Source: an uncultured bacterium
Lineage (GTDB): Bacteria > Bacillota_I > Bacilli_A > RF39 > UBA660
Length of the DNA: 64,000 bases
Direction of reading: 5' to 3'
NCBI GenBank assembly: GCA_905215145.1
Contig: CAJMOW010000003.1
Location: 1 to 64,000, forward strand
The first letter of the stretch is position 1, and every line of letters starts with the position of its first letter. A model generated the notes under the pieces. The model worked only from the letters and a program-made list of their open reading frames with translations. It had not been told where the DNA came from and did not search any database. Of the stretch, positions 43,893-58,003 are shown piece after piece. The translations under genes were made by a program, and so were the position numbers.

Positions 43893-43966
43893 TGACTTGA
43901 GTGGGACTCTAACCCACAACCTGCTCCTTAGGACGGAGATGCTCTATACTATTGAGCTCTCAAGCC
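43893..43966 (-). tRNA. tRNA-Arg(CCT)
   Basis: 74 nt. Acceptor GGCTTGA/TCAAGTC (one G.U), D-arm GCTC/GAGC, anticodon loop GTCCTAA (CCT), T-stem GTGGG/CCCAC, discriminator A. No encoded CCA. Reads the AGG codon. One mismatch at the top of the anticodon stem. Confidence 0.88.
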
Positions 43967-43973
43967 TTGACGG

Positions 43974-44318
43974 TTACATACTAATAGATCCGGTATGTTT
44001 ACCTCTTACTTTAACAGAGTTAGCAGTAATATCTCCCTCTACATCACCACCTACTTCGATGCTGTTAGCTTCTATACTACCTCCTACATTACCTTTAACT
44101 TTGACACTATTACCATGTACAGTAAGAGCGTTTCCATCAATGTCACATGTATTACAGTTAAGCTCCTTTACATTACCAGTAAAACTGATATGTACACTAT
44201 CATTATTGACTTCAGATATTAATTTACCATTCACATAAATTCTATTCTTTATTTGTGACAGGGTAATATCATCTTCATCAATATCAAACGATTCATTGTC
44301 AATAAACAGTTTATTCAT
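43974..44318 (-). CDS. Bactofilin-like polymer-forming protein
   Basis: 114 aa from the ATG at 44318, which overlaps the upstream gene by 8 nt. From about residue 45 it is a repeat of short beta-helix coils, each like GNSVKVKGNVGG, SIEVGGDVEGDI or SVKVRGKHTGSI. This is the right-handed beta-helix pattern of bactofilins (DUF583), which polymerise into filaments. Phage versions may form a scaffold. Function inferred. Confidence 0.7.
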   Translation of the reverse strand: MNKLFIDNESFDIDEDDITLSQIKNRIYVNGKLISEVNNDSVHISFTGNVKELNCNTCDIDGNALTVHGNSVKVKGNVGGSIEANSIEVGGDVEGDITANSVKVRGKHTGSISM

Positions 44319-44619
44319 GATTCTTCTTATCCAGTTCATAGTACTTAATAAGTTTATCAAATGCTTTAACTCTAGCATTATGTCCTTCCTCACTATCAGG
44401 GGTCCACCAATAAGCTTTACCATACCTGTCTTTAGGAGCATTTAGAAACTTCCTGTTAAATTCTGGAATCATGGTAATTATATCACGTTGGCTATAAATA
44501 GTGATTCCACGTTCGGTTCCTGCCATAGCGTGTTCTATACAGAAACACATTCCCCAGTATTCAGGGTGGGTTACAAATAATTCTTTAGCTTTTTTAAGAA
44601 CACTTACAACATCTGTCAT
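44311..44619 (-). CDS. Hypothetical protein, 102 aa
   Basis: ATG overlaps the upstream stop (ATGA). Aromatic and cysteine-containing (YWGMCFCIEHAMAGTERG), with KAYWWTPDSEEGHNARVKAF. Seen as a small phage domain; family not named. Confidence 0.62.
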   Translation of the reverse strand: MTDVVSVLKKAKELFVTHPEYWGMCFCIEHAMAGTERGITIYSQRDIITMIPEFNRKFLNAPKDRYGKAYWWTPDSEEGHNARVKAFDKLIKYYELDKKNHE

Positions 44620-44780
44620 TTCACTTTAGATTTAGTTAGTTGGCCAATCATTTGATTTCTAAAGCCCTCAACTTGATGGGGACATATATTAGTAATCCAT
44701 TCTTTAAAATATCTATGATATTTAGTGTGATTACTTTTATAGAACTCTCTTTCCAACCAGTTATACAATTCTCTTTCCAT
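44616..44780 (-). CDS. Hypothetical small protein, 54 aa
   Basis: ATG at 44780, TGA overlapping the next ATG (ATGA). Reads MERELYNWLEREFYKSNHTK, then YHRYFKEWITNICPHQ. Pattern of a small helical domain. The coupling to 44311-44619 supports it as real. Confidence 0.6.
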   Translation of the reverse strand: MERELYNWLEREFYKSNHTKYHRYFKEWITNICPHQVEGFRNQMIGQLTKSKVK

Positions 44781-44794
44781 ATTTATTAAATTAG

Positions 44795-44866
44795 TAGTCT
44801 TATTCAGAATCGAACTGAAACCTCCATATCCGTAGTATGGTATTCTATCCGTTAAACTATAAGACT
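44795..44866 (-). tRNA. tRNA-Arg(ACG)
   Basis: 72 nt. Acceptor AGTCTTA/TAAGACT, D-arm GTTT/GAAT, anticodon stem CCATA/TATGG with loop CTACGGA (ACG), T-arm TTCAG/CTGAA with TTCGATT, discriminator A. No encoded CCA. Reads CGN after A34-to-I editing. Only 4 nt separate its 5' end from the rRNA-like RNA at 44871-45094. Confidence 0.9.
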
Positions 44867-44870
44867 AAAG

Positions 44871-45094
44871 AATAGAGGGTGTGCTGTTACGCCAAATGCT
44901 CTGACTGAGTTTCACTCTTATCTCGTTTACCTTCCTCCGTCTATATAGGCAGTTTCAACATGAGTATTCTAAACGACATTATTACATTCTTGATTCGAGG
45001 CTATCAGTAAGGATGCTGCCTAATTATACTTCAATAGAAACCTACTCGCAACTCTTTAAATGATGGCCGCTTTTAAGCCTACATCCCCTCTATT
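44871..45094 (-). ncRNA. 23S rRNA GTPase-centre mimic RNA, tRNA-tethered
   Basis: 224 nt with no ORF. A perfect 9-bp terminal helix (AATAGAGGG with CCCTCTATT) closes it, in the position of rRNA helix 42. Just inside, 45053-45085 reads GATGTAGGCTTAAAAGCGGC then CATCATTTAAAGA. This matches the helix 43 stem-loop and linker of bacterial 23S rRNA (E. coli 1055-1088; three differences by my hand alignment from memory). At the other end, 44881-44893 reads GGCGTAACAGCAC, the helix 44 loop (E. coli 1091-1104). Equivalents of A1067 and A1095, the L11/thiostrepton/EF-G contacts, are kept. A 159-nt insertion lies between, with its own helices (TAGGCAG/CTGCCTA, GAGT/ACTC). The 3' end is 4 nt before tRNA-Arg(ACG), so RNase P would free it. 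Function (L11 or factor decoy, stringent-response block, specialised ribosome) is inference. Confidence 0.85.
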
Positions 45095-45098
45095 ATAA

Positions 45099-45359
45099 TT
45101 ATTCTATACCATAGTACATTAAGTACAATACTTGCTGCCTTAAACCGTATCTACGTGTAACAACATTGGCATTAAACCTTCCAGTTATGGCTACATTAAT
45201 GCTTCTCTTCAATTTGTCGGCAGTAAATGATTTACCAGTAGTACCAATTAGTCCATTAGGTTCATCAGCGCAAATAAAATCTACAGCTTCAAATAACTGT
45301 TCTTTGGTCTCTGCACTATTTACCTTTTGCCACTTCTCTAATTCTCTCTCAGAATTCAT
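45099..45359 (-). CDS. Hypothetical protein, 86 aa
   Basis: ATG start. Contains ICADEPNGLIGTTGKSFTA and FNANVVTRRYGLRQQVLYL. It ends 4 nt before the rRNA-like RNA. Family unknown. Confidence 0.6.
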   Translation of the reverse strand: MNSERELEKWQKVNSAETKEQLFEAVDFICADEPNGLIGTTGKSFTADKLKRSINVAITGRFNANVVTRRYGLRQQVLYLMYYGIE

Positions 45360-45362
45360 AAC

Positions 45363-45737
45363 TCAAGACAATGCTTCAAGCTCTTTAGCCAATTCTTCAT
45401 AAGATTTACTCTCAAGCTCTGCATCCTGTTTCTTAGCCATGAGATCAAGAATCTTTTGACGCTTAGCTTTCTTCTCAGCAGCTACAATGCGTTCTTCCTG
45501 TTCCTGTAACTTAACGTCAATAATGTGTTTTACAATATTGAATTTCAGTTCAAGTTCAGTGGTGTCTTTAGTACGAATCTTAATGAAACTTTCGGTTTGT
45601 GATTCCTTTAGCCTCTTATTAAGATTAATAGCAATAGGATCAAGTTGTTCCAGAGATAAATCCCACAAATCTTCAACAGATAATACTCCACGATTAGTGG
45701 AATAACGTAATTTTATTCTTGATGCTTTCTCAAACAT
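45363..45737 (-). CDS. Coiled-coil protein, 124 aa
   Basis: Helical from about residue 35 (LNKRLKESQTESFIKIRT) with a long basic/acidic coiled coil (EERIVAAEKKAKRQKILD). Next to a large zinc-finger protein of unknown role. Likely a structural adapter. Confidence 0.62.
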   Translation of the reverse strand: MFEKASRIKLRYSTNRGVLSVEDLWDLSLEQLDPIAINLNKRLKESQTESFIKIRTKDTTELELKFNIVKHIIDVKLQEQEERIVAAEKKAKRQKILDLMAKKQDAELESKSYEELAKELEALS

Positions 45738-45749
45738 AACACTTTCATT

Positions 45750-47762
45750 TTAAAAGTTAACTTTAATGGTTCTTGTAAAGCTGCCAGTAACTTTACAGAT
45801 AACACTATTGCGGATGGTAGATGAGAATCCTAAACCACTCAACTGATTATCAGAATAAGGAGCCTTCATCTTATTAGCTAACATCTCAAACGTCTTACGA
45901 TCCTGAGATAGTTCACTCCTAAGATATTCGTTAAAGAATCCTCTTACTGGAGATGGATTCTTGCACCCATCTAAGATAAAGAAATAGTGTTTATTGCCTA
46001 CTTCTGCACCGTTCCAATAATTTGGAGACAGAGTGAGTAACGATACCTTATGGAATTTGTTAGTAGACAAGTTCCACGTCTCTTTATCACTTGAATTACT
46101 CGGAAGGACATCATGTATGACAATTCCCTTGGCCTTAGAATACTCAAATCTGGCTACTGTCACTTTATCACGACCTCGAAGATCTGTTGTGTAGGTATAC
46201 TCACGTACTTCTCCGTTACATTCAATTTCAACAGTAAATCCAACATCGTGATAATCTCTTTTGCAGAAATTGTGTACATATACGGTATACATACCTTCCA
46301 TACGCGGTTCATCCTCCCAGATAACGTTCTCTACTGGTTTACGAGAATGTATACCACCAGCATTCATGTCAACATCTAGCACCCCACCAGAAGCTCCAGT
46401 TCTATGTGAATAATAGATTTCACTACCCCGAGGTTGTATGATATGGATGTCTAAATCATCACCATTATACCATGCAAGAGAACACCTTAGATATCCATTC
46501 ACCTTACCTCCAGCAGCCTGCACCTTATCCTTAATAGAAGAATCTGCAAGGTCTCCATTGTATGTCCAAGCGAAATTGTTTGGCCATTTAAATAGATTCT
46601 TTGCATCTTTATTAGATGGAGCTGTTAGAGTCATAAGGTTGTTTATATGTCTACTTTCTAATAGAACTTCTATACTGGTAGCATTGGGAACAACATCCTT
46701 AATAAAGTCCTCAATTGATATTTCAGCAACAGTACCTAATTTCTTAGGATTAACTGGAATATCTTCCGCTAAATCTTGGAATACACTATTCCCAAGCATT
46801 GACTTCTTAGCATTTCTATCAGCAAAGATTACATCATTAACTGTAATGTCAGTAATTTCTGCATGTCGCCTTGGAAGTGCATCCATTAGCCCTAGTTCAA
46901 TAACCCTAGCTTCAGCAGCTTGAATCATCTTCTTAGTAGCTATTGTCTTAGGTCTTTGATAATTAGCAGGAGCTACTATTCTCTCGTAAGCTCTTACACT
47001 TTCATCAAGTTCACGTCCATTGGAGATGTCTACAAGCAAAGTGCCTATAGCAGTATTCCTAATACGTCCTACATATCCAACTTTAGCAGATTCAACCCAG
47101 CAGAAATTATCACGTTCCTCGCGGGGTACTACTTCATATTTCTTCTTAAGTGCAACAAATGCCTCTAGATCGGATTTATACTGGTCTCCACGATACAAAG
47201 AACCTTGCGAAATCAAATCCAGAACAATGTCAAAAGCATCCATGGATAACTCATCCAAAGCCCGCTTCAATACTGTTTTATTGGTACGAAGTGCTCCTCT
47301 TACTGCTTCTTCAGAATCAGATACTGCACAAAGTAAATGATTAGGAAGCTTGTAAAATAAATGATTCCATGTATGTACGTGTCTCGTAGGAGTTTCTATC
47401 CACACATTGTTCTTATCTGTACCCAGTTTAACCACCTTACTAACAAATACGTCACATACTGGTTTAGATTTAACAAGTTGGGCTAAGTTTCTGGCTACTG
47501 TAGCATAAGGTTCATCTAACACTAAGAAATCCCAAATACTTACTAACTTGTTATTAACTATTGCAACTACATTGCCATAAGGTTTGATAAATTGACGACA
47601 GCAATTACATGTATGTGATTGTCTCTCGTCTTCTGGATAAGAATCTATGTAACAATCCCACAGCTCATCCTTATTAACATTAGTTAAATACAATCTATCA
47701 GCATTATTAGCTAAGGCATCAAATTGCTTATAAACTGCTCGTTTAAAATCAATAAATTCCAC
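45750..47762 (-). CDS. Large multidomain protein with YfaP-like C-terminal domain
   Basis: 670 aa, GTG start. N-terminal zinc-like motif (HTCNCCRQF) near residues 51-57. Helical middle. From about residue 425 a beta-sandwich reads RCSLAWYNGDDLDIHIIQP, LDVDMNAGG, NVIWEDEP and GMYTVYVHNF. This pattern (W..GDDLDLHV..P, LD-D-N, PEN-I-W) is typical of YfaP/DUF2135 domains that accompany VWA and AAA+ proteins. A VWA and an AAA+ protein are encoded nearby (57081-58001, 54058-55497). Overall function unknown. Confidence 0.72.
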   Translation of the reverse strand: MEFIDFKRAVYKQFDALANNADRLYLTNVNKDELWDCYIDSYPEDERQSHTCNCCRQFIKPYGNVVAIVNNKLVSIWDFLVLDEPYATVARNLAQLVKSKPVCDVFVSKVVKLGTDKNNVWIETPTRHVHTWNHLFYKLPNHLLCAVSDSEEAVRGALRTNKTVLKRALDELSMDAFDIVLDLISQGSLYRGDQYKSDLEAFVALKKKYEVVPREERDNFCWVESAKVGYVGRIRNTAIGTLLVDISNGRELDESVRAYERIVAPANYQRPKTIATKKMIQAAEARVIELGLMDALPRRHAEITDITVNDVIFADRNAKKSMLGNSVFQDLAEDIPVNPKKLGTVAEISIEDFIKDVVPNATSIEVLLESRHINNLMTLTAPSNKDAKNLFKWPNNFAWTYNGDLADSSIKDKVQAAGGKVNGYLRCSLAWYNGDDLDIHIIQPRGSEIYYSHRTGASGGVLDVDMNAGGIHSRKPVENVIWEDEPRMEGMYTVYVHNFCKRDYHDVGFTVEIECNGEVREYTYTTDLRGRDKVTVARFEYSKAKGIVIHDVLPSNSSDKETWNLSTNKFHKVSLLTLSPNYWNGAEVGNKHYFFILDGCKNPSPVRGFFNEYLRSELSQDRKTFEMLANKMKAPYSDNQLSGLGFSSTIRNSVICKVTGSFTRTIKVNF

Positions 47763-47774
47763 GATAATTAAATT

Positions 47775-48596
47775 TTATAAAGGTTTTACATTATCAAAGA
47801 TAGCATCACTGGCTTCTTCTCCCCATTTAGAATAGATAACAACACCTATTGGGGTCACTTGGAATACAAACGGATCAATACTTCGTGGTATTACTCTTAT
47901 CTCAGTTTCAGTAAAAGATACCAGTTGTTGCATATCGTCTACTGGTGCAGCTATAAATAAGTCTGTAGATTTACAGGCAGTATGAGACATAGTTACTCCC
48001 TCAGTTCTTCCATTCCAATACTTGGCAAATGGATACGCTAGAAGTTCTTTCTTGTGGTATTGTAAGAATATTAGACCTTCGGGAACAGGCTCTTCACGAT
48101 AAAAGTTATAGTGAGAGTATGGATTTGAAGTACTACTCCTTCTGACATTGACTTTTACGTTAGTAATAAGAGCATTATCACGATTAGAGTATTTATTATC
48201 CGTTAACGAGTCTAGTGTAGTCTTAGTAGCCAAGATTTCATCCAGATTATCTTCTGGTATATCACCTTTATAATACGATAGTGGCCCGGATACCAATCCA
48301 TACTTAACATTCAGATTAATAAAATCTTCCTCTTTGAGTATAATGCATCCAGGGAAGTTCTGCGAGAAGAAGTTATAGCATTTAAAAGTCTCTAAGTTAT
48401 TCATATACTTCTCAGCATCTGTAATAACTGAAGAGTGATCAAATCCTAGTAACTTAGCTTTCTCAGCTTTCTCAATTGCAACATGATTCATCTCTAAGCT
48501 TCTGGTTTGTTGCAACCAGTTTAAGCTAGCTAATATATAAGCTTGATGAATCTCTAGAGCTCCTATTTGGGGTCTAGTACCAATTTGTGTGTCCAT
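47775..48596 (-). CDS. Paralogous phage protein, copy 1
   Basis: 273 aa. Shares with 52254-53057 the blocks YGLVSGPLSYYKGDIPEDN, DLFIAAPVDDM and DPFVFQVTPIGVVIYSKWG. The two genes are clearly paralogues after duplication. Mixed alpha/beta, no catalytic motif recognised. The C-terminal block looks like a WxxEA(S/T)D-IFD module. Function unknown. Confidence 0.68.
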   Translation of the reverse strand: MDTQIGTRPQIGALEIHQAYILASLNWLQQTRSLEMNHVAIEKAEKAKLLGFDHSSVITDAEKYMNNLETFKCYNFFSQNFPGCIILKEEDFINLNVKYGLVSGPLSYYKGDIPEDNLDEILATKTTLDSLTDNKYSNRDNALITNVKVNVRRSSTSNPYSHYNFYREEPVPEGLIFLQYHKKELLAYPFAKYWNGRTEGVTMSHTACKSTDLFIAAPVDDMQQLVSFTETEIRVIPRSIDPFVFQVTPIGVVIYSKWGEEASDAIFDNVKPL

Positions 48597-48601
48597 AATC
48601 T

Positions 48602-48718
48602 TTATGCTTTCTTTTTAATAGAACCTGGTCTTGTAGTAGCCCTTTTGAATGTATCAGACTGCTTATCCCACCATGCTTGACGGTCTCTAAGACGTTGTTG
48701 TTTCTTCTTGTATTTCAT
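48602..48718 (-). CDS. Basic mini-protein, 38 aa
   Basis: ATG at 48718, TAA at 48602. MKYKKKQQRLRDRQAWWDKQ, then SDTFKRATTRPGSIKKKA. Strongly basic, with AWWDKQ and TRPGS elements that I associate with tiny proteins of Bacteroides phages. Overlaps the RNase H stop by 32 nt. Likely binds nucleic acid. Confidence 0.55.
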   Translation of the reverse strand: MKYKKKQQRLRDRQAWWDKQSDTFKRATTRPGSIKKKA

Positions 48719-49127
48719 ACATATTTAAGTTTAATTCATTGCTAGCATTATAAGCAAGCTTATCAGCTTTCTCATTATACTCAGAACCATTATGTCCTTT
48801 GACCCATCTCACGTCTATAAGCTTATGACGTTCAATAGCCCTATCAAGTCTAGCCCATAAGTCAGTATTAGCTTTCCTTTTCCAGTTCTTAGTAAGAGTA
48901 CCTACTATATACATGGAATCAGTAACTATAATGACTTCTGAGCTAGTTTTAATGGATTCTAATGCGACTATAACTGCCATTAGTTCCATTCTTTGATTAG
49001 TACTATTTACATACATTTTACTGTAGGAGAATACTTCCTTTCCATCTTCCACGATAACGAATCCTATTCCACCTTGATTTCTAGCAGGAGAGTATGCTCC
49101 ATCAGTAAATATTGTATACTTATGCAT
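48687..49127 (-). CDS. rnhA: Ribonuclease HI
   Basis: 146 aa from the ATG at 49127 (longer TTG form rejected). Active-site residues: TDGAYSP (D9), MELMAV (Glu), TDSMY (Asp) and EYNEKAD (Asp), with RWVKGHNGSEYN preceding it. Cleaves the RNA strand of RNA/DNA hybrids, removing primers in phage replication. Ends with an acidic/threonine tail. Confidence 0.93.
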   Translation of the reverse strand: MHKYTIFTDGAYSPARNQGGIGFVIVEDGKEVFSYSKMYVNSTNQRMELMAVIVALESIKTSSEVIIVTDSMYIVGTLTKNWKRKANTDLWARLDRAIERHKLIDVRWVKGHNGSEYNEKADKLAYNASNELNLNMYEIQEETTTS

Positions 49128-49572
49128 CAGCTGTAGGATCTTCAACAAAATCTTCGTCGGAATCTGTTTCAGCTTCTGTTGCTTTGTGAAGTAAATGTAA
49201 TGTCCACATTCCTAATACGAATGCAACATACAGTTCATCCTCAGGCTCTTCATATGTAAGCTGATCTAATACAGCATTACATACTTCCATCAATGAGAAA
49301 TCATCCTTAGACATTTCTTCATCAGATATCTTAGTCATATCATTTACATAAGGTCTAACTTTCTGTATAGCCATATCAAATGACTTAGATAGTCGCAAAC
49401 CCTTATCACCAGCATCTATAGCTGCATGAAGAGGTTCTTGTAACTCATCTCTAAGATATCCTAATGCAAAGGCTCTAGTTATGTCTCCTTTAGCTAAATC
49501 TAAGAAAGACTCAGCATTAAGAAACTCGTCTAATTCAAATTCGATGTCTTTAATGTCTATTAATTTACCCAT
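49120..49572 (-). CDS. Acidic helical protein, 150 aa
   Basis: ATG at 49572 chosen; a frame from 49698 would overlap 49577-49819 heavily. Very acidic C-terminus (ATEAETDSDEDFVEDPTADA). Helical core with ELQEPLHAAIDAGDKGLRL. Possibly a regulator or DNA mimic; unassigned. Confidence 0.62.
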   Translation of the reverse strand: MGKLIDIKDIEFELDEFLNAESFLDLAKGDITRAFALGYLRDELQEPLHAAIDAGDKGLRLSKSFDMAIQKVRPYVNDMTKISDEEMSKDDFSLMEVCNAVLDQLTYEEPEDELYVAFVLGMWTLHLLHKATEAETDSDEDFVEDPTADA

Positions 49573-49576
49573 TTGA

Positions 49577-49819
49577 TTATTGAAGTAAACTTCCAATCTT
49601 ATCGGCCATGGAAGTTGCTTTATTAGAGACTTCGCTAAGATTAGCTGTCTCAGTTTGTAATAAAATAATCTCTTGTTCTTTAGCTGCTTTCTCATCATCT
49701 GCTCTTTTAGCTACATCACGTAACTTATTAACAGTAGACTGAAATGCATCAATAATCTTGGAAGATTCTTCTGCCAGAGAAGAACTAGTAATCTTATTTA
49801 CTTTCTTACCTATTATCAT
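49577..49819 (-). CDS. Small coiled-coil protein, 80 aa
   Basis: Almost wholly helical with heptads (STVNKLRDVAKRADDEKAAK, then EQEIILLQTETANL). ATG at 49819, 33 nt after the tRNA-like sequence. Function unknown. Confidence 0.6.
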   Translation of the reverse strand: MIIGKKVNKITSSSLAEESSKIIDAFQSTVNKLRDVAKRADDEKAAKEQEIILLQTETANLSEVSNKATSMADKIGSLLQ

Positions 49820-49851
49820 AAGAGTTATTTAGTTACAAGACTTAAGGGATG

Positions 49852-49922
49852 TCGCCATCAGAGGATTCGAACCCCTGCCACTACATGTACTGTGGACCCG
49901 ATCAAAACGATTGTTAATGGCG
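49852..49922 (-). tRNA. Degenerate or atypical tRNA-like sequence
   Basis: 71 nt. Has a 7-bp acceptor (CGCCATT/GATGGCG), canonical T-arm (AGGGG, TTCGAAT, CCTCT) and discriminator A. The D-arm is only 3 bp, and the anticodon arm (CCAC...GTGG) has an oversized loop, so no anticodon can be assigned. It may be a decayed tRNA or a tRNA-like 3' end of the RNA at 49923-50060. Confidence 0.55.
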
Positions 49923-50060
49923 TTGGAGCAGTGATTAAGACTTATGTCCCTAAAGAGGTATGCTGCAACCACCCCACTCCTTGTACTTCGGAGCACATCT
50001 TATTCCATATGCTAGACTCTGCTTTAGTCTTCATCGCCAGAGTTAATTATAATCCAGTCT
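49923..50060 (-). ncRNA. Structured noncoding RNA 5' of tRNA-like sequence
   Basis: 138 nt between a small zinc protein and the tRNA-like 5' end. Hairpins: AGACT/AGTCT; CTCC/GGAG around GAAGTACAA; GGT/ACC around TGCAGCAT. No ORF. Same arrangement as the other tRNA-abutting RNAs, but no long closing helix found. Confidence 0.5.
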
Positions 50061-50234
50061 CTAGCCTGGTTTCATTTTCACTTGCTTAAACTTACCACAC
50101 TTAGTGCATACCAAAAGGTATACATGGGAATAAGGAATTTCTTCATCATTCATGTATACATTCATGTGCTTTAATTCCTTCCAATTATGCCGACACGTTA
50201 GTTTCAGTATCCAATTCTTTAATAGCTCTTTCAT
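50061..50234 (-). CDS. Small zinc-binding-like protein, 57 aa
   Basis: ATG at 50234, TAG at 50061. MKELLKNWILKLTCRHNWKE, then YSHVYLLVCTKCGKFKQVKM. The CTKCGK pair with CRHNW upstream could form a C-H-C-C zinc site. Common layout for tiny phage proteins. Confidence 0.62.
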   Translation of the reverse strand: MKELLKNWILKLTCRHNWKELKHMNVYMNDEEIPYSHVYLLVCTKCGKFKQVKMKPG

Positions 50235-50235
50235 A

Positions 50236-50520
50236 TTACAATATTTTAGTCACTTTGCCAAACACGGATTTAGTCCATCCATTAATCTTACCATGATTGT
50301 TGCCTATAAGGACTCCTCTATCTCCCTTAGCTTTGACTAAGTGAGTATAGTATCTACCTTTGACTTTACAAAAGACAATATCTCCCACTTCTACTTTATC
50401 TAGGGTTACTGGACTTAAGACATGCTTTTGTCCCGATTTGATTAGAGGAGTCATGGAATTTCCCTTCTCTGAAGTTACGAAGGAGTTTCCTTCTGCCAAC
50501 ATCTTTACCTTGTATAGCAT
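50236..50520 (-). CDS. S24/S26 peptidase-like protein
   Basis: 94 aa (codon 7 is also ATG). Contains GNSMTPLIKSGQ, the serine-containing strand of LexA/signal-peptidase folds, then VEVGDIVFCKVKGRYYTHLV and IGNNHGKINGW. The general-base Lys is not obvious; His in YTHLV occupies that region, as in some Ser-His S26 proteases and their phage relatives. May be an active protease or a fold relative. Overlaps the upstream gene by 125 nt in another frame, unusually long. Confidence 0.7.
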   Translation of the reverse strand: MLYKVKMLAEGNSFVTSEKGNSMTPLIKSGQKHVLSPVTLDKVEVGDIVFCKVKGRYYTHLVKAKGDRGVLIGNNHGKINGWTKSVFGKVTKIL

Positions 50521-50893
50521 TAGCCATTAATTGCATTTCGTAAATAAAGTTTAATCTCTGTTCCATTCTAGAACCGTTAGTTATTCTCTCAAACATAGAT
50601 AAATGTCCTCCATTGCCACATAAACAATATTCCATTAAAGTGTCATATCGTTGTTTCTTAGCCTCTAGCTCGGCTTCTGGAATGGGATATCTCTTAAGTT
50701 CAAGACCTCTATATAAATCAACAAGTTCGCCCAATGTAGATGACAGTTTTAATAATGCCATTACATTGGGCGCACGATGCCTTTCACATTTATTGACGTA
50801 TTCCTCTAAAGCTAAATCCCAGTCACCGAATACATATTTGACTTGTGACAATTCAATTTCAGTAACCTTTCTTAGAAATTCATAAATCTTCAT
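50396..50893 (-). CDS. Hypothetical protein, 165 aa
   Basis: ATG start, overlapping the next upstream gene by 14 nt. Helical, with YVFGDWDLALEEYVNKCERH. The last 40 residues lie in the overlap with the S24-like gene and are low-complexity basic, so the true end may be shared. Function unknown. Confidence 0.6.
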   Translation of the reverse strand: MKIYEFLRKVTEIELSQVKYVFGDWDLALEEYVNKCERHRAPNVMALLKLSSTLGELVDLYRGLELKRYPIPEAELEAKKQRYDTLMEYCLCGNGGHLSMFERITNGSRMEQRLNFIYEMQLMANAIQGKDVGRRKLLRNFREGKFHDSSNQIGTKACLKSSNPR

Positions 50894-51038
50894 TATTAAC
50901 TGCTTTAGACGTTACTACCTTATTTTCAGTCCTTTCTTTAGTCTTGATAGCAGACTTACAAGCCTTCTTTCTCATTACTAACGGACAATCACAATACCCT
51001 GCTGGATTATACCAACAACAATAATCACACTGATGCAT
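50880..51038 (-). CDS. Cysteine-rich small protein, 52 aa
   Basis: ATG at 51038; a longer frame would start inside the tRNA-Leu. MHQCDYCCWYNPAGYCDCPL has five cysteines, then a basic tail (VMRKKACKSAIKTKERTE). A metal-binding mini-protein. Confidence 0.6.
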   Translation of the reverse strand: MHQCDYCCWYNPAGYCDCPLVMRKKACKSAIKTKERTENKVVTSKAVNNEDL

Positions 51039-51056
51039 ACAACATAATTTTAATTG

Positions 51057-51142
51057 TAGCCAGAACGGGAGTCGAACCCGCACGAGCATTTCTGCCCACC
51101 AGATTTTAAGTCTGATGCGTCTACCAGTTCCGCCATCTGGCC
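51057..51142 (-). tRNA. tRNA-Leu(TAA)
   Basis: 86 nt with long variable arm. Acceptor GGCCAGA/TCTGGCT (one G.U), D-loop TGGCGGAACTGGTAGACGC, anticodon loop CTTAAAA (TAA), T-arm GCGGGTTCGACTCCCGT, discriminator A. No CCA. Reads UUA. Confidence 0.93.
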
Positions 51143-51149
51143 ATCCTTG

Positions 51150-51308
51150 TTACACAATACATGCAAGAAGTAACATTATTGTAGTTACTATTGATATGGA
51201 GAACATCACTTTAGTAAATTTATCATTGACATTCCATATCATTCCTAGAGCTGCACTTCCTAAGGACATTGCAGCTAGAGTTACCAACACATACTTTAAA
51301 ACCATCAT
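51150..51308 (-). CDS. Small two-helix membrane protein, 52 aa
   Basis: ATG at 51308, TAA at 51150. Two hydrophobic segments: VLVTLAAMSLGSAALGMIW and FSISIVTTIMLLLACIV. Lies between genes, with start overlapping the previous stop. Possibly a holin-like or antiholin peptide; inference only. Confidence 0.6.
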   Translation of the reverse strand: MMVLKYVLVTLAAMSLGSAALGMIWNVNDKFTKVMFSISIVTTIMLLLACIV

Positions 51309-51373
51309 ATTTCACACTGCTCTTCATTTAATCTATCAATCCAATTGATTAATAGACGATACAACCATTTCAT
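51305..51373 (-). CDS. Candidate leader peptide, 22 aa
   Basis: ATG at 51373; TGA overlaps the next ATG. MKWLYRLLINWIDRLNEEQC then EI. Amphipathic, and coupled to the membrane protein downstream. Could be a leader peptide or chance. Confidence 0.35.
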   Translation of the reverse strand: MKWLYRLLINWIDRLNEEQCEI

Positions 51374-51639
51374 TTCCTTAATACTTTCTTTGCATATTCA
51401 CCATAGGAACCATGTCTCTTCATAAACGGAGTTAGAAACCTATAATCGAATTTATAATCACATACATCATAATCGTTCACAATCTCCCTACTAGAAGAAA
51501 TCTCATAGTCTAGGATATCTTTAAGTGTTAGAATATCTCTAGTCTGTTGCCTTTGGTGTCTCTTAACCCTTCGGTTATACCAATTGCGTTTAACTTTAGG
51601 TCCTTTAACAATAGGAATTTTACGTCTACTTCTAGTCAT
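51370..51639 (-). CDS. Basic hypothetical protein, 89 aa
   Basis: Strongly basic N-terminus (MTRSRRKIPIVKGPKVKRNW, then YNRRVKRHQRQQTRD), as in RNA- or ribosome-binding proteins. Overlaps the L7/L12-like gene by 8 nt, so the two are co-translated. RNA binding is suggested, not shown. Confidence 0.62.
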   Translation of the reverse strand: MTRSRRKIPIVKGPKVKRNWYNRRVKRHQRQQTRDILTLKDILDYEISSSREIVNDYDVCDYKFDYRFLTPFMKRHGSYGEYAKKVLRK

Positions 51640-52033
51640 TTAATACATAATCACAATAAGTATCAACAAAATCTTTGGCTTCTTTCAAACCGCATTTGGT
51701 AGACTCCTTTACATGCTTAACTGCTTGTAGTTTGGTACCCCTCTGCACAAGCTGCTTCATCTTAAAAAAGTCTTCACATGACAAATCAATTGTATTATTC
51801 CAACGCTTCTTGTATGCAAGCATTGCATCATTATACTCTTGAGGATGTTCTGTCCAAGTGATTTGCTGGTCCAGGATAACTGTACAAGTTCCATCAAGTA
51901 TATCATACTCTCTGGATTCTACAGTAAATTTGCCAGCTTCTAGCACCACTGTGTCTGTAGGGAATGGAATCATCTCTGATGAGATTGATACTTCCTCTAT
52001 TGTCTTATCGTCTTTTACAAACTTTACGTACAT
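51632..52033 (-). CDS. Protein with ribosomal L7/L12 C-terminal-like segment
   Basis: 133 aa. Residues 101-125 read KLQAVKHVKESTKCGLKEAK then DFVDT. L7/L12 has KxxVIKxVRxxTGLGLKEAKDLV at the same element; by my alignment about half the positions are identical, including GLKEAKD and V. In L7/L12 this helix-turn-helix surface binds EF-Tu, EF-G, IF2 and RF3. The N-terminal 100 residues are unrelated. L7/L12-CTD-like modules also occur in other small proteins, so factor binding is a prediction. It lies 7 kb from the GTPase-centre RNA. Confidence 0.72.
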   Translation of the reverse strand: MYVKFVKDDKTIEEVSISSEMIPFPTDTVVLEAGKFTVESREYDILDGTCTVILDQQITWTEHPQEYNDAMLAYKKRWNNTIDLSCEDFFKMKQLVQRGTKLQAVKHVKESTKCGLKEAKDFVDTYCDYVLND

Positions 52034-52058
52034 AATCTTTAAGTATTAATTAGTAATG

Positions 52059-52132
52059 TGGCGAGAAGGTGACTCGAACACCCAACCTTGATATTATGAG
52101 TATCACGCTCTAACCAGTTGAGCTATCTCGCC
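52059..52132 (-). tRNA. tRNA with CAT anticodon (Met or Ile2)
   Basis: 74 nt. Acceptor GGCGAGA/TCTCGCC, D-arm GCTC/GAGC, anticodon stem TGATA/TATCA, loop CTCATAA (CAT), T-arm GGGTG, TTCGAGT, CACCT, discriminator A. Lacks the three G:C pairs of an initiator. Elongator Met or tilS-modified Ile2 cannot be told apart here. No CCA. Confidence 0.9.
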
Positions 52133-52136
52133 ATTA

Positions 52137-52242
52137 ATAAGAACATAAAGCTCGTCGTGTTTACATCGTCACCAATGTAACCTTAATACCTCCCGTTTGC
52201 TTCACTGCCGGCTAGTTTGGCTTTGTCTCCTTATGTTCTTAT
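52137..52242 (-). ncRNA. Closed structured RNA abutting tRNA(CAT)
   Basis: 106 nt. Perfect 12-bp terminal helix (ATAAGAACATAA with TTATGTTCTTAT) followed by 4 nt and then the tRNA. Inside, a hairpin TTACAT/ATGTAA and a GC-rich stretch (CTAGCCGGCAGTGAAGC) well above local GC. No ORF. Same architecture as 44871-45094. Identity unknown. Confidence 0.72.
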
Positions 52243-52253
52243 GGATTTATAAG

Positions 52254-53057
52254 TTAACGATATTTATCGAATATGCTATCCGTAGCTTCAGTATCCCACA
52301 TAGTAGCAATAATTGCTCCTATTTCATTTGCCTTAAAGACAATTGGATCCTCAAGCTGACGTTTTCTAGCCTCTTCTTTACCTGAATACATTCTGATAGT
52401 TATATTATCTGTCATAGTATCATAGGGAGCTGCTATACACCAGTCACTGTCATTTAAGGTAAGTGGACTGAAGCTTACACTGTCCTCAACTTCTGGGTGT
52501 CCTATAGCACGCATATATTGCCATCCAGAAGAGATATCGTCCACTACAAACGGGAATCTTGAGAAGTATTCAACGATTTCATTTACTATACTCTTTGGCA
52601 TATCGGAATCTATATCTATTCTAGGAACCCATTGCATGTTATTAATATTCCTTATTTTACGCAATTCCTCTCCGGCCTTTACAATAGCTTCAATGTTCTC
52701 TTCAGGGATAACTCCCTTATAAGTTGAAATGGGACCACAAGCTAAGTTGTACTTCTTCAATACTTTAAAGAAATCATCATAAGGAACTATCATACAAGAG
52801 GGACTAACTTTCTTGATTCTGTCAATAAGAGAGGCAATTTCATCTCTAGATTTACTAGAACCTTTAGCAGTTAATAGAGTACGAAGTACTTCAGCATTCT
52901 TAGTTCTACCTAATCCATTAGCTTCCAGCTTAGCAATCTGAGCTTTAATATCTTCTGTCTTATCGACATTCTGCCCTTCCAAGTATTTCTTACAATACTC
53001 CATAGAAGCAACTACTAGGGCATTACGTAGAGCTTCTGCATTCAAATTATTTACCAT
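52254..53057 (-). CDS. Paralogous phage protein, copy 2
   Basis: 267 aa. Matches 47775-48596 in YNLACGPISTYKGVIPEEN, DWCIAAPYDTM and DPIVFKANEIGAIIATMWD. An internal helical region (KAQIAKLEANGLGRTKNAEV) differs from the other copy. Duplication in a phage suggests two specialised roles. Function unknown. Confidence 0.68.
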   Translation of the reverse strand: MVNNLNAEALRNALVVASMEYCKKYLEGQNVDKTEDIKAQIAKLEANGLGRTKNAEVLRTLLTAKGSSKSRDEIASLIDRIKKVSPSCMIVPYDDFFKVLKKYNLACGPISTYKGVIPEENIEAIVKAGEELRKIRNINNMQWVPRIDIDSDMPKSIVNEIVEYFSRFPFVVDDISSGWQYMRAIGHPEVEDSVSFSPLTLNDSDWCIAAPYDTMTDNITIRMYSGKEEARKRQLEDPIVFKANEIGAIIATMWDTEATDSIFDKYR

Positions 53058-53520
53058 TGTTATGACTTATTATACTAGTTATATAACGCACACTATACAC
53101 TATGAACGAACAGCCACTACTTCCAGTTACTAAGAGTAAGAGTACACATATAAGCTGATTGTGCCAAGGTCCGTACTCGGTTCTAGATATATTAAAATAG
53201 AATGTATTCTTAACACCATTAACAATAGCCCTATTCCAGGTTGGAGTGTCTACGGCTAGCTTAAATGTGTTATTAAACCCTTCAGCTTGTAATACAAGTT
53301 TATTTACCTTCTTAGTAGTAGAATTACCATCTTGTGTAATAGTTTCATCCTCTACTATTCTGTCTATGACTTTGCATTTAACTCTGTGGTCAACATTCAT
53401 ATCATGCCAGAACTGAGTAGTATATACTTTAATACATAAACATAGTATTAACAAAGCTACTATTGCAATCCTTCCTGAAACCTTTTCAATTTCAGGTCTT
53501 AAGTCAATTATTGTTGGCAT
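53047..53520 (-). CDS. Two-TM membrane protein, 157 aa
   Basis: ATG start. Hydrophobic helix at about 17-34 (GRIAIVALLILCLCIKVY) and another near 123-146 (LICVLLLLVTGSSGCSFIVY), with a loop of about 90 residues, probably periplasmic (TWNRAIVNGVKNTFYFNIS). Function unknown. Confidence 0.62.
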   Translation of the reverse strand: MPTIIDLRPEIEKVSGRIAIVALLILCLCIKVYTTQFWHDMNVDHRVKCKVIDRIVEDETITQDGNSTTKKVNKLVLQAEGFNNTFKLAVDTPTWNRAIVNGVKNTFYFNISRTEYGPWHNQLICVLLLLVTGSSGCSFIVYSVRYITSIISHNNGK

Positions 53521-53671
53521 CTTTTACACTTAATAATTGCGTTGCTGTATTCAGTCCTAATTCATATGCTTCAGCAATCAATACCACTGCATCGGCTAAT
53601 GTAAGCTTGTTATTATTTGCTTCAGCAAACTCACCTGCTTCTTCAAAGATTTCTTTCAAATTATCTGCCAT
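53504..53671 (-). CDS. Small helical protein, 55 aa
   Basis: ATG at 53671, TGA at 53504. MADNLKEIFEEAGEFAEANN, then LTLADAVVLIAEAYELGLNT. Very helical and acidic. Overlaps the downstream start by 17 nt. Function unknown. Confidence 0.6.
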   Translation of the reverse strand: MADNLKEIFEEAGEFAEANNNKLTLADAVVLIAEAYELGLNTATQLLSVKDANNN

Positions 53672-53702
53672 AATTAAATAAGTTTTAAAGTTACTACTCT
53701 AG

Positions 53703-53783
53703 TAGGGTAGGAGAGACTCGAACTCTCACACCCGAAGGCATCAGTGCCTAAAACTGACGTGTCTACCATTCCACCACTACCCC
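53703..53783 (-). tRNA. tRNA-Leu(TAG)
   Basis: 81 nt with a medium variable arm. Acceptor GGGGTAG/CTACCCT, D-loop GTGGTGGAATGGTAGACA, anticodon stem TCAGT/ACTGA, loop TTTAGGC (TAG), T-arm GAGAG, TTCGAGT, CTCTC, discriminator A. No CCA. Confidence 0.92.
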
Positions 53784-53784
53784 A

Positions 53785-53997
53785 TTACCGTTTTAATAAT
53801 TTAATGAACTCATCTTCATTCCCCTTGTAGTATTGCTGAAGATATGCTATATATACAGCTTCATTCTTAACTATTTGAGGGAATTTATTCTCAAACTCAA
53901 TTACTCTTTCTTCTCCAACTATGCTAACATGAAAGTCTCTAGCATCATTACTAGGACTGCATAGCAACATAAATAAAATAACTATTAGATACTTCAT
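53785..53997 (-). CDS. Exported small protein, 70 aa
   Basis: ATG at 53997 (a GTG at 54027 lies within the terminator). Signal peptide or signal anchor (KYLIVILFMLLCSPSNDARD), then a soluble acidic/helical region. Likely periplasmic or lipoprotein-like. Function unknown. Confidence 0.6.
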   Translation of the reverse strand: MKYLIVILFMLLCSPSNDARDFHVSIVGEERVIEFENKFPQIVKNEAVYIAYLQQYYKGNEDEFIKLLKR

Positions 53998-54008
53998 TAT
54001 AAATAAAA

Positions 54009-54035
54009 GAAAGAGGAGTGTTGCCACTCCCTTTC
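54009..54035 (-). terminator. Rho-independent-like terminator
   Basis: Minus strand GAAAGGGAGTG, loop GCAA, CACTCCTCTTTC (one bulged T), then TTTTATTT. It lies 22 nt after the stop of the AAA+ gene, so the AAA+/membrane-system transcript probably ends here. Confidence 0.85.
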
Positions 54036-54057
54036 TAGTTTTAACCCAAAGTCAGTG

Positions 54058-55497
54058 TTAATCTTTAAAGTCGTTACGACTATATTCGAAATAAGTTTCA
54101 CACATCTTTAAAGTCGTTTCAATCTTATCGGCTCCAAGCAATCCTATTAACCCAGCGGCTAATTTATCAGCAGGAGTTTCGATAACAGCTTTCTTAGAAG
54201 CAAGACCAACTTGACGTTGATAGGATTCAACACTGGTTTTAATATGGAACGACGTTACATGGGTCTCTTCAGTAAAGATAAGCTTAGACTTAGTAGATTC
54301 TACAATTTCAGCCATAAATGCCGGAGCAATCTGTGCTTTAGCAATGTAGTTACATACATCTGACAAGTCGTCGTCTACGCTATAACCTTCAGCTTCGGAG
54401 AATGTTTCACGAATAAACCTTTCAGCTGTTTCAGCATCAAGACAATCCATAGTAATCACAGAACCAATTCTTTTACCTCTTAAGAAGGTAGGTTCAATCA
54501 GCTCAATATGATTAGTAGTAAATAAAGTGATTACGTTCATATCTTTGGTATCGCCACCATCCAAAGTATTCAGAATATCCTGCATTGCAGAATCTCTGTT
54601 ACCTCTAGTTACCTGGTCAATATCCTCTACAAAGACAATAACACCATGACCTGAACGGTCTACCACTTTACACATACGGAGAGTTTCAGCTAACAGAGAA
54701 GGGTCTTTTAGATATACGAATGACCATCCGTTGTTTACCGCATCTTTGGCCAGTTTAAATGCCAGTAGGGTCTTACCAGTACCATATTTACCTTCCAGTA
54801 AGCAGCCATACTTCAAAGGAATACCCTTTGCAATACATTTCTCTGGGTACAAGATTCTTGAACGAAGCGGTTGCAGCTCAAATTCTGTCTTCTTTGACAG
54901 AACCATAAACTGCTTATCGATACCGGCTAGAGTCATAATCTTCGGTTCACTCAGATTGGTAATTTCAAGTGCCTGGTTCTTATAGATAGATTCAGTTGCG
55001 AGCAATTCTTTAGTTCTTTCAACAATATCATCAATAAGAGATTGGTACTTGAATTGGCACTGACCTTTAACCAATAGTAAATGACGGTCGTTGTCATAGT
55101 TAATATTGATTTCAGAATCCTCACCAAGTTCTTCCAAAGAGATTTTACCAAAAGGTACTTTAGTACGAGAGCCATCAGCTAAGATAACATCTACGGTGTC
55201 AATATTACTGTTGCCGGAAGGACTCTTATCCTCCTTACTAACAGCAGAACCAAACACTTCATTGATAGCTCTATTCAGCTGATACACGCCATCTGGTTTC
55301 CAACATAGGAGTGTGTACTTGAATGATGCCATCTTCTTAGACTGCTTGATTTCGCCTTCAATGAAGCCCAGAACGTCTGCATACTTCATATTACTTTGGC
55401 ACACTTCGATGATTCTCTGTTTCTGAGATTCCTCGTACTTGTTAACTCTAGCTGCTATAGCAGCGGTGGTTCCTTGCGGAATAATGTTCTTCGCCAT
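54058..55497 (-). CDS. AAA+ ATPase
   Basis: 479 aa. AAA+ module in the C-terminal half: Walker A GKYGTGKT (236-243), Walker B VIVFVEDIDQ (about 283-292), sensor-1 FTTNHIE, and an arginine-finger candidate in LRGKRIGSV. The N-terminal 200 residues are a separate domain, perhaps substrate-recognising. Resembles bacterial and phage AAA+ remodellers found near VWA proteins. Presumed to extract or remodel a target protein. Target unknown. Own terminator follows. Confidence 0.85.
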   Translation of the reverse strand: MAKNIIPQGTTAAIAARVNKYEESQKQRIIEVCQSNMKYADVLGFIEGEIKQSKKMASFKYTLLCWKPDGVYQLNRAINEVFGSAVSKEDKSPSGNSNIDTVDVILADGSRTKVPFGKISLEELGEDSEININYDNDRHLLLVKGQCQFKYQSLIDDIVERTKELLATESIYKNQALEITNLSEPKIMTLAGIDKQFMVLSKKTEFELQPLRSRILYPEKCIAKGIPLKYGCLLEGKYGTGKTLLAFKLAKDAVNNGWSFVYLKDPSLLAETLRMCKVVDRSGHGVIVFVEDIDQVTRGNRDSAMQDILNTLDGGDTKDMNVITLFTTNHIELIEPTFLRGKRIGSVITMDCLDAETAERFIRETFSEAEGYSVDDDLSDVCNYIAKAQIAPAFMAEIVESTKSKLIFTEETHVTSFHIKTSVESYQRQVGLASKKAVIETPADKLAAGLIGLLGADKIETTLKMCETYFEYSRNDFKD

Positions 55498-55763
55498 TAC
55501 TTGTTAGGTTTATTAATCTTATTTACTTCCTTAATAATTGCCTCGCAATTCTCTCTGGTTGTAGTTAAACAACCTAATTGAATAATTGAACCATCTTGAG
55601 TGATGGTAAGATTCTTATCATCAATTGTGGTTCTACATTCACTTCCCCTAATAATACTTTTAATCAATGGGTAGGGTAATGCAGTATTCTTACAGAATAT
55701 TACATTCTTGCCTTCCACATAAATGACATCGTAGCCGTCAATGCTACCTACTACCTTCCTCAT
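55497..55763 (-). CDS. Hypothetical protein, 88 aa
   Basis: ATG start; stop shares one base with the AAA+ start. Beta-rich, resembling small sensor domains (MRKVVGSIDGYDVIYVEGKN). Coupled to the AAA+ gene, so a probable partner or substrate adaptor. Confidence 0.62.
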   Translation of the reverse strand: MRKVVGSIDGYDVIYVEGKNVIFCKNTALPYPLIKSIIRGSECRTTIDDKNLTITQDGSIIQLGCLTTTRENCEAIIKEVNKINKPNK

Positions 55764-55787
55764 AAAAGATTCTTATCATCAATTGTG

Positions 55788-55861
55788 TGGGCCCAGCCAG
55801 ACTTGAACTGACAACCTCAACATTATGAGTGTTTTGCTCTAACCAATTGAGCTATGAGCCC
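55788..55861 (-). tRNA. tRNA with CAT anticodon (Met or Ile2), second copy
   Basis: 74 nt. Acceptor GGGCTCA/TGGGCCC (one T.G), D-arm GCTC/GAGC, anticodon AACA/TGTT with loop CTCATAA (CAT), T-arm TTCAAGT, discriminator A. One of the two CAT tRNAs may be Ile2, since phages often carry both. Not initiator-like. No CCA. Confidence 0.9.
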
Positions 55862-55943
55862 TTAATTCTTTAAGACTAACACAATTAATAGTAAGGTCTT
55901 ATTAATAACAAACTCATTAACATATTAAAATCATAATTAGTAG

Positions 55944-56014
55944 TTGGACCACCAGGATTCGAACCTGGACAAACAGAACCAAAACCTGTTGTGCTGCCGT
56001 TACACCATAGTCCA
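55944..56014 (-). tRNA. tRNA-Gln(TTG)
   Basis: 71 nt. Acceptor TGGACTA/TGGTCCA (one T.G), D-loop with TGTAACGGCA, anticodon stem ACAGG/TCTGT, loop TTTTGGT (TTG), T-arm CCAGG, TTCGAAT, CCTGG, discriminator A. No CCA. Confidence 0.93.
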
Positions 56015-56029
56015 ATTACTAAGGGAATA

Positions 56030-57076: not shown

Positions 57077-57080
57077 GATT

Positions 57081-58001
57081 TTAATAGAAATTTTGTTTGT
57101 CTTCGGTAGTTGTACTACTAGAAGCATCACTAGGAGTTTCTGCATACACAGGCTCCTCGTAATTGTCTTTAATTGCTTTAGCAATTACTTTATCCACTTC
57201 ATCAGATTTGCACATTAGTACATTCTGTCCAAGTAGATTCTTCCAAGATTCAGCCACCCTTGTGCCATAACTGGCATTAGTAATGTGAATGTGGAATACA
57301 TGGTACTGCTCTTGTGCTTTCCGAATTGCTTCATTAGCACTAATAGAACCAGCACCTTTTTGATACCCTAGAATTTCAGTTAAACTATCACCTGGGATTC
57401 CCTGTAGATTAGGTTCATCACCAATAGTGAACAAGAATCCTTTAGTGTGTCTTTTGAACCAAGAATCGGTTTCAGTGTGATATCCTGCAACTATGTGAGC
57501 TAATAAATAGCTCTCACCTGCATTACCACCACCTCCACCTTCTATTACTAAGGACTCTAATGAATTTAGAATCTTTTCAGTATCAGATTCAAACTGTCCA
57601 ACCTGAATAGGATATCTATCGTATTCGTGGTCTCCAACTGCCATAAACAACAATTGAGGATCACGTACTCCCATTTGCATGACAGAATCCATAATCTTAG
57701 GTAAATGGTTCTTAATCATTTCATAAGGAGTATCCATCATTGAACCAGTAACATCCAGTGCAATGATTATCGGAGTAGAGTATGGATGTTCTTGGGAGTC
57801 ACGACACTCACGAACTCCAACATTGACCATTTCAGCTTTAATTTGAGTATTAAAGCTACGTGCATTTACATTAAATGACGCTGCTGTATTACTAGCATCT
57901 ACTGAAATGTTCTTAAAGAGCTGGTCACGCGATGCTTTAGCATATCCTCTATCATCAGATAAAGTGCTATAAGCAATACTACTGTAAACACCACTTCCCA
58001 T
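57081..58001 (-). CDS. Von Willebrand factor A domain protein
   Basis: 306 aa. MIDAS metal site DVTGSMM (D83, T85, S87) and ALDV strand, then GDHEYDRYPIQ and VIEGGGGGNAG. A VWA domain binds Mg2+ and a ligand protein. Acidic/serine tail (SDASSSTTTEDKQNFY). Such domains pair with AAA+ ATPases in chaperone or remodelling complexes; an AAA+ gene lies downstream. Role in the phage unknown. Confidence 0.85.
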   Translation of the reverse strand: MGSGVYSSIAYSTLSDDRGYAKASRDQLFKNISVDASNTAASFNVNARSFNTQIKAEMVNVGVRECRDSQEHPYSTPIIIALDVTGSMMDTPYEMIKNHLPKIMDSVMQMGVRDPQLLFMAVGDHEYDRYPIQVGQFESDTEKILNSLESLVIEGGGGGNAGESYLLAHIVAGYHTETDSWFKRHTKGFLFTIGDEPNLQGIPGDSLTEILGYQKGAGSISANEAIRKAQEQYHVFHIHITNASYGTRVAESWKNLLGQNVLMCKSDEVDKVIAKAIKDNYEEPVYAETPSDASSSTTTEDKQNFY

Positions 58002-58003
58002 AA

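Follow-up and report, generated by a model that had tools for sequence, protein, structure and literature searches.

Does the noncoding strand beside a tRNA gene in the window (the whole 64,000-nt stretch of DNA that was analyzed) encode a copy of the GTPase-associated center (GAC) of 23S rRNA in the form of a free phage RNA, as the original prediction proposed, and what could such an RNA be used for? Both GAC modules were found on the minus strand of the window in the order that they have in 23S rRNA. E. coli 23S position 1055 corresponds to window position 45086, 1090 to 45051, 1091 to 44892, and 1104 to 44879. The parts of the predicted RNA and its neighbors are listed below.

44871..45094, minus strand: whole predicted GAC-mimic RNA, 224 nt (LSU model, alignment, intergenic site, and family evidence)
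45086..45094, minus strand: 5' strand of the closing helix, replacing upper helix 42 (nine perfect pairs with 44871-44879)
45051..45086, minus strand: equivalent of 23S 1055-1090, comprising helix 43, its loop, and the linker, UUUAAAGAGU (31/34 agreement at 1055-1088; LSU model match)
44897..45050, minus strand: insert of 154 nt between 1090 and 1091 (alignment; the base stem covaries in the family)
44893..44896, minus strand: UUUG linker preceding 1091 (UUUG or UUUA in nearly all family members)
44879..44892, minus strand: equivalent of 23S 1091-1104, comprising the helix 44 hairpin GCGUAACAGC plus ACAC (12/14 agreement)
44871..44879, minus strand: 3' strand of the closing helix (perfect pairing with 45086-45094)
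44794..44866, minus strand: tRNA-Arg (ACG), 4 nt downstream of the RNA (ARAGORN and Rfam tRNA)
45099..45359, minus strand: upstream ORF of 86 aa without a Pfam match, whose stop codon lies 4 nt before the RNA

Alignment with an E. coli-type 23S rRNA (L058) reproduced the agreement at 43 of 48 positions that had previously been counted by hand (31/34 at 1055-1088 plus 12/14 at 1091-1104). The perfect 9-bp flanking helix and the spacing of 4 nt to a tRNA also proved to be correct, the tRNA being recognized as tRNA-Arg by both ARAGORN and Rfam, and the strand is indeed noncoding in that no ORF of at least 60 aa overlaps the RNA in the window. One element of the layout has to be revised. The insertion, which was thought to comprise 159 nt and to replace the helix 43/44 junction, actually consists of 154 nt plus UUUG between 1090 and 1091, with positions 1087-1090 kept and the junction intact. 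It begins with UGCGAG and ends with AGAGCA, which can pair as a short base stem. Adenines are present in the window RNA at positions 1061, 1067, and 1095.

The helix 43 pattern, with three mismatches allowed, occurs at one place in the window and in none of 100 shuffles, and the 36-nt pattern has two mismatches at the element compared to ten at the next best place in the window; a chance match was thus ruled out. The Rfam LSU model (RF02541) matched positions 45028-45099 on the minus strand with an E-value of 0.0072, so that the expected hit was obtained only in part, for the 5' half of the RNA, and its score of 16.4 bits is below the gathering score of 50 bits and does not reach the cut-off for bacterial 23S rRNA. 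No LSU match at the gathering score, and hence no other 23S domain around the GAC, was found in the window, and the ORF and the tRNA lie 4 nt away on either side. An intron in a 23S gene was rejected for this reason. A coding region was also rejected, given the lack of an overlapping ORF of at least 60 aa and the covarying stems described below. GOLLD, ROOL, and other Rfam families were discarded because nothing matched over the RNA in the window or in 17 loci (in the 17 loci scanned, no family at its cut-off covered the GAC RNA), and kinship with the T4 rnaC/rnaD RNAs was discarded because the modules are absent from them.

As had been anticipated, related phages contain a conserved family of such RNAs. 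Scanning of IMG/VR with the helix 43 and linker pattern yielded 69 stretches, several of which represent the same phage repeated. The 3' module, with at most three mismatches, is present downstream in 67 of these 69 stretches (51 listed members and 16 more); of the remaining two, L058 is a real 23S rRNA and L033 ends too early to judge. A second IMG/VR scan, using the 3' module alone, resulted in at least 120 stretches. Among the matches listed, 100 stretches brought in by the 3' motif alone contain 101 places of this motif, and helix 43 (at most five substitutions, at most 450 nt upstream) was detected at 71 of them, compared to 0/101 when the upstream DNA was shuffled. The other 30 places are explained by chance, by inserts of greater length, or by helices that diverge further, and some of them were later accepted as members. 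Linker variants were found with UCUAAG in 45 stretches and with UAUAAU in 18. With at most four substitutions in the 5' module, at most two in the 3' module, and at least four closing pairs taken to define membership, the family comprises 162 members in 162 sources. Ten of the 162, which have an aberrant or shifted linker, were excluded from the alignment, and the resulting 152 rows were reduced to 115 divergent members by shared 8-mers; this filter demanded A1088 and U1090, so constancy at these two positions of the alignment is no result. Real 23S rRNA in phage records was recognized and set aside (L058, L071, L188, and L189). One of these, the record of Paenibacillus phage Pd_22F (L071, MZ092003.1, at about position 83976), has a real bacterial 23S inside it and is likely to represent host DNA or a chimeric record.

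A blastn search of a phage collection with helix 43 queries returned 48 and 47 records, some of which are short, unverified, or bacterial with real 23S. Both modules are present in all 13 named phages compared (GAP32, CBB, 4_4572, pf16, XaC1, BF, XacN1, Milchi, Astolliot, UNO-G1W1, pEa_SNUABM_12, XbC2, and Kaldavass). A closing helix is apparent on visual inspection of their flanks and contains one or two mismatches in some of these phages (e.g., GAP32, BF, 4_4572, and XaC1). The seven mismatches that CBB shows by rigid comparison look like the result of a one-base deletion. When a bacterial collection of 84,980 species was searched with a strict pattern, four matches were obtained, namely one family member (L175, in a MAG), two real 23S rRNAs, and one copy in Nostoc (L174); by this strict pattern, family members are rare in bacterial genomes. 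For the window RNA itself, blastn of the window region against the named phages gave no match, no relative with the same insert was found, and the single IMG/VR relative (L327, 43%) of a neighboring 670-aa protein has no GAC RNA within 14 kb.

Covariation among the 115 members recovers the GAC structure. In a blind calculation of mutual information, for which no structure was supplied, the top 17 pairs are all GAC, closing-helix, or insert-base pairs: 1058/1080, pairs of 1047-1055 with 1104-1112, 1082/1086, four insert-base pairs, 1064/1074, and 1057/1081. The ten best pairs, including 1058/1080 and 1082/1086, reach 0.90-1.55 bits, compared to a maximum of 0.21 in 20 column shuffles, and 1064/1074 (0.22 bits) and 1057/1081 (0.20 bits) are at the level of the shuffles. 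The tertiary pair 1082/1086 is UA in 58 members, CG in 39, and AU in 13. Comparison of paired fractions with shuffled partners gave 97% versus 59% for the closing helix, 99% versus 79% for lower helix 43, 96% versus 58% for 1082/1086, and 96% versus 61% for the insert stem; these shuffles leave shared descent in, yet the pairs switch among many types in divergent phages. For upper helix 43 (99% versus 96%) and helix 44 (99.6% versus 99%), covariation is weak because the sequences hardly vary. After partners were slid by one to three columns, the highest pairing was 48% for the closing helix, 82% for lower helix 43, 88% for 1082/1086, and 84% for the insert stem. Even without selection for the closing helix, 144 members average 6.8 of 8 pairs versus 3.7 with permuted partners, and the closing helix differs in sequence among phages with its pairing kept. 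The helix 43 and helix 44 sequences of the GAC domain are therefore accompanied by compensatory changes in its stems, as had been looked for, and the large family together with these changes, including those at 1082/1086, lends strong support to the idea of a phage RNA that is a copy of the 23S GAC.

The pattern of conserved nucleotides was counted on members fetched via the opposite module. Positions 1059, 1060, 1071, 1072, 1079, and 1085 are invariant in 49/49 members fetched by the 3' motif, and positions 1092-1094, 1098, and 1099 in 60/60 members fetched by helix 43, although the independence of these counts is soft since membership limits substitutions. GAGU is present at the linker (including A1088 and U1090) in 147 of the 162 members. 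We take the conserved nucleotides to be the tertiary core known from GAC crystal structures, i.e., 1060/1088, 1071 and 1072 with the helix 44 pairs, and 1082/1086. The loop tips are looser than in real 23S rRNA: positions 1067-1070 are kept in 34-39 of 49 members versus 39-42 of 43 23S sequences, A1067 in 35/49 versus 39/43 (a small contrast), A1095 in 54/60 versus 43/43, and A1096 in 37/60 versus 43/43, the reference being 43 of 45 distinct 23S sequences from few phyla obtained with a conserved query, which underestimates 23S variation (5 of 85 loci fitted too poorly for this comparison). The equivalents of A1067 and A1095 that had been singled out are thus present in the window but not strictly kept in the family (99/115 and 103/115, respectively, in the whole alignment). 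Position 1101 is A in 113/115 members and U in 41/43 real 23S sequences, and A1061 is found in 29/115 members. Loop tips looser than in 23S together with a kept core would fit selection on folding and L11 binding better than selection on factor contacts. Conservation of the core is no proof of L11 binding, as plain folding would need the same core.

Energy-based folding is the main result against the GAC-fold reading of the window RNA. Its folding energy is unremarkable (z of -1.35). The free minimum-energy structure contains the closing helix and lacks helix 43, and pair probabilities are 0.999 for the closing helix, 0.006 for helix 43, and 0.01 for the helix 44 hairpin, so that on this point the calculation went against the original prediction. 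Forcing helix 43 costs 5.4 kcal/mol, and a stricter forcing of the full GAC structure costs 17.4 kcal/mol. Among 104 other members with inserts of up to 300 nt, 97 have a mean pair probability of at least 0.5 in the closing helix, compared to 48 in helix 43 and 34 in the helix 44 hairpin; the energy models behind all of these values omit tertiary contacts, Mg, and L11. The support for GAC mimicry is comparative.

The insert has a constant position in the family, between 1090 and 1091 in the 5' strand of helix 44, and its length varies from 23 to 441 nt (median 131). A sub-family of 25 among the 115 members shares a 3' domain of CACCCC, a hairpin, and GGUAAGG, with paired elements of its own. 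The UGC start and GCA end of the window insert are the same in L007, L008, L056, and XacN1. The insert may stabilize the RNA or provide it with a further binding site that is specific to the phage.

With respect to genomic surroundings, a tRNA is present in the examined stretch for 81 of the 115 members and absent for 34. With distances counted from a point 12 nt outside the modules, 63 members have a tRNA at 300 nt or less, the nearest one always being on the same strand (63/63), 45 have one on the same strand at 15 nt or less, and 52 have none within 300 nt; random positions in the same stretches have a tRNA within 300 nt in 787/2300 cases. In the window, minus-strand tRNA genes are dispersed in a gene array over about 20 kb (43893-63610). 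Their count is 13 by ARAGORN and 13 by Rfam, with 14 places combined, each method missing one. No L11 gene was detected in 20 phage records (10 named phages and 10 IMG/VR contigs, the latter possibly fragments), and an L12-like domain was detected in two of the 20, as fragments in UNO-G1W1 (96300-96383, plus strand) and G189:C1:240996-241076 (minus strand). Genes for tmRNA are present on two of the viral stretches that carry GAC RNAs (L014:4045-4349, minus strand; L099:8864-9133, plus strand). Companion rRNA mimics were also sought in the stretches of the 162 sources with nine short 16S/23S motifs. Seven of the nine gave no match, and the sarcin-ricin loop was absent at up to one mismatch. At the same tolerance, an 11-nt A-loop motif had 20 matches and the 13-nt 16S end had three, which we took for chance rather than for companion mimics.

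How might such an RNA act? In our best explanation, the window RNA is the phage's own copy of the GAC helices 43 and 44 and serves as a decoy that keeps L11 off ribosomes, a possible reading that we adopt tentatively and would place somewhat short of probable. On the evidence of sequence comparison, the phage RNA should fold like the GAC and is a predicted L11 binder. Among the uses suggested originally, L11 binding is the best supported because the core required for folding of the isolated 58-nt GAC is kept; there is less support for binding to translation factors or thiopeptides, given that the loop tips (1067-1070, 1095, and 1096) vary more than in the sampled 23S. The RNA is predicted to be a separate molecule cut from a transcript shared with tRNAs, and its 3' end in the window would likely be set by RNase P as it cleaves at the 5' end of the tRNA. 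It would then adopt the isolated 58-nt GAC fold, bind host L11, and be abundant enough that part of the ribosomes run short of this protein. L11 is about as abundant as ribosomes, and a decoy must therefore be very abundant itself. A shortage of L11 would weaken the L11-dependent activation of RelA (the stringent response) and might move factor use towards phage translation; RelA function has been described as partly L11-dependent (PMC7873864). In vitro, L11 is reported to bind the isolated 58-nt GAC carrying U1061A (PMC10161774). In the absence of Mg, the affinity of the GAC for L11 is reported to be negligible (PMC8373061). L11 binding would be expected because the phage RNAs keep the nucleotides of the GAC fold, A1061 being natural in the window. 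For ROOL, a phage RNA of tRNA islands, an abundance equal to that of 16S rRNA is reported from at least one strain, and GOLLD is reported to be bound by ribosomes in pull-downs (PMC12286853), which makes a high copy number of the GAC RNA conceivable. A simple decoy gives no role to a long and variable insert. A broader proposal, which we regard as doubtful, is that a class of trans-acting phage RNAs copies a ribosomal domain to take away a ribosomal protein; here the GAC copy would strip or withhold L11, turn off the RelA alarm, and have the stalk remade for phage translation, with the insert adding a second function.

The main rival to the decoy is an L11-anchored scaffold, in which the GAC would dock L11 (or thereby the L10-L12 stalk or the ribosome) and the insert would be the working part, e.g., a guide, a protein platform, or a delivery structure. 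Insertion at a single site with a covarying base stem and the existence of insert sub-families, such as the 25/115 members described above, favor this idea, as does the consideration that a pure decoy would have no need of an insert, and bL12-domain proteins are reported to be phage-encoded as well (PMC6375957). We nevertheless consider it rather unlikely, as the inserts differ in both length and sequence and the shortest, at 23 nt, leaves little room for a cargo. It is also conceivable that the RNA belongs to the tRNA transcript as a spacer with a stable structure, which would protect precursors or keep them apart and would aid their processing, resembling the GAC only for the sake of a compact fold. 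Tight same-strand packing with tRNAs, which in the window leaves 4 nt on either side of the RNA, before tRNA-Arg and after the upstream ORF, agrees with such a role, but the 34/115 members without a tRNA in the examined stretch, the 52/115 without one within 300 nt, and the retention of exact GAC core nucleotides that a spacer would not need make it unlikely.

The relaxation of the loop tips relative to the sampled 23S weighs against two further explanations. The GAC of the ribosome is the docking surface for EF-G, EF-Tu, IF2, and RelA, and the RNA could accordingly lure the translation factors or RelA directly, without L11; this appears very improbable, also because the factor site has a second half, the sarcin-ricin loop, which is missing from the stretches of the 162 sources at up to one mismatch. 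Thiopeptides contact A1067 and A1095, and the RNA could be a decoy substrate for drugs of this kind or for GAC-attacking enzymes such as a Tre23-like ADP-ribosyltransferase. Helix 44 of 23S rRNA is reported as a genuine target of the Tre23 toxin (PMC8636562), but the positions touched by such agents are the more variable ones, and we judge this use to be quite improbable. Finally, a functionless captured 23S fragment or an assembly artefact has a practically negligible probability. Genuine 23S does occur in some phage records (the four that were set aside), but the compensatory changes, private closing helices, and constant insertion site in 115 divergent members, as well as the presence of both modules in 13 named phages, contradict this explanation, which the covariation refutes as a general account. 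Contamination by 23S rRNA or a misassembled rRNA gene was likewise ruled out by the private closing helices and the compensatory changes.

The RNA was also compared with known systems. It shares with the GAC of 23S rRNA (E. coli 1051-1108, the L11-binding domain) helices 43 and 44, the loop and linker sequences, the core nucleotides, and the covarying 1082/1086 pair, but it is free of the remaining 23S rRNA, has a variable closing helix of its own and an insert at 1090/1091, carries A1101 instead of U, has looser loop tips, and is located in phage genomes. GOLLD and ROOL are likewise structured phage or prophage RNAs beside tRNAs, described as being without known function (PMC12286853), whereas only one of 17 GAC loci (L001) has a GOLLD match, which adjoins and does not overlap the GAC RNA; the terms 23S and GTPase do not occur in the main text of that paper. 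In L001, the GOLLD RNA (1582-2047, plus strand) encloses a tRNA, and the GAC RNA follows about 110 nt later on the same strand. Ribosomal-protein leaders, such as the uL1 site before rplK-rplA, also copy a protein-binding site of 23S rRNA (PMC10931766), but they act in cis on ribosomal-protein mRNAs, whereas the window RNA precedes tRNA-Arg and the L11 gene is found in 0/20 phage records. The T4 species 1 and 2 RNAs (rnaC and rnaD), which according to annotation are also small stable phage RNAs at a tRNA cluster, have no helix 43/44 module, their best encoding-strand matches showing 13 mismatches to the 36-nt pattern and six to the 18-nt pattern. Phage-encoded bL12 and bS21 are similarly phage genes directed at the stalk region or the make-up of the ribosome (PMC6375957), but they are proteins rather than RNA, and no word beginning with L11 occurs in the main text of that paper. 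In agreement with the original prediction, searches of open PMC full texts for phage RNAs, mimics of rRNA, and tRNA clusters brought up no title or beginning of an abstract in which a phage copy of the GAC is described, and it is also missing from passages of further papers; subscription papers are mostly outside this literature, and an earlier description is possible.

RNAs that copy rRNA are known from self-regulating ribosomal-protein mRNAs. If the explanation is true, a free phage RNA copying a tertiary rRNA domain across divergent phages would represent a new viral action on the ribosome, a role would be revealed for at least a portion of the small RNAs in phage tRNA clusters that lack an explanation, and the countering of the stringent response by phages through L11 would become directly testable. 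Testing should be easy, since the binding of L11 to the isolated GAC has been studied for a long time.

Several minor observations were made on individual loci. Among 12 named phages (CBB excluded), nothing is annotated over the RNA in nine, and a small hypothetical ORF is annotated in Milchi (L182:1228-1359, minus strand), UNO-G1W1 (L184:1267-1374, minus strand), and Kaldavass (L187:1231-1323, plus strand); these three ORFs are probably no genes. One phage contig with a GAC RNA carries an exact copy of the 13-nt 16S rRNA end (GGATCACCTCCTT, L003:9908-9920, plus strand) with no 16S helix 45 around it, which is probably due to chance. Insertless, free-standing GAC-like copies with a GUGUAAYAAC variant of helix 44 were observed in two cyanobacterial genomes (2/292 by pattern), namely at about 865-920 on the minus strand of L174 in Nostoc (G001:C574:32865-32920) and at about 1501-1545 of L310 (G112:C88). 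These copies might be related to the phage RNA in a minimal form, or be degenerate pieces of 23S rRNA. The L310 copy lies within a 3-kb stretch that also contains genes for tRNA-Gly, tRNA-Ala, tRNA-His, and tRNA-Ser.
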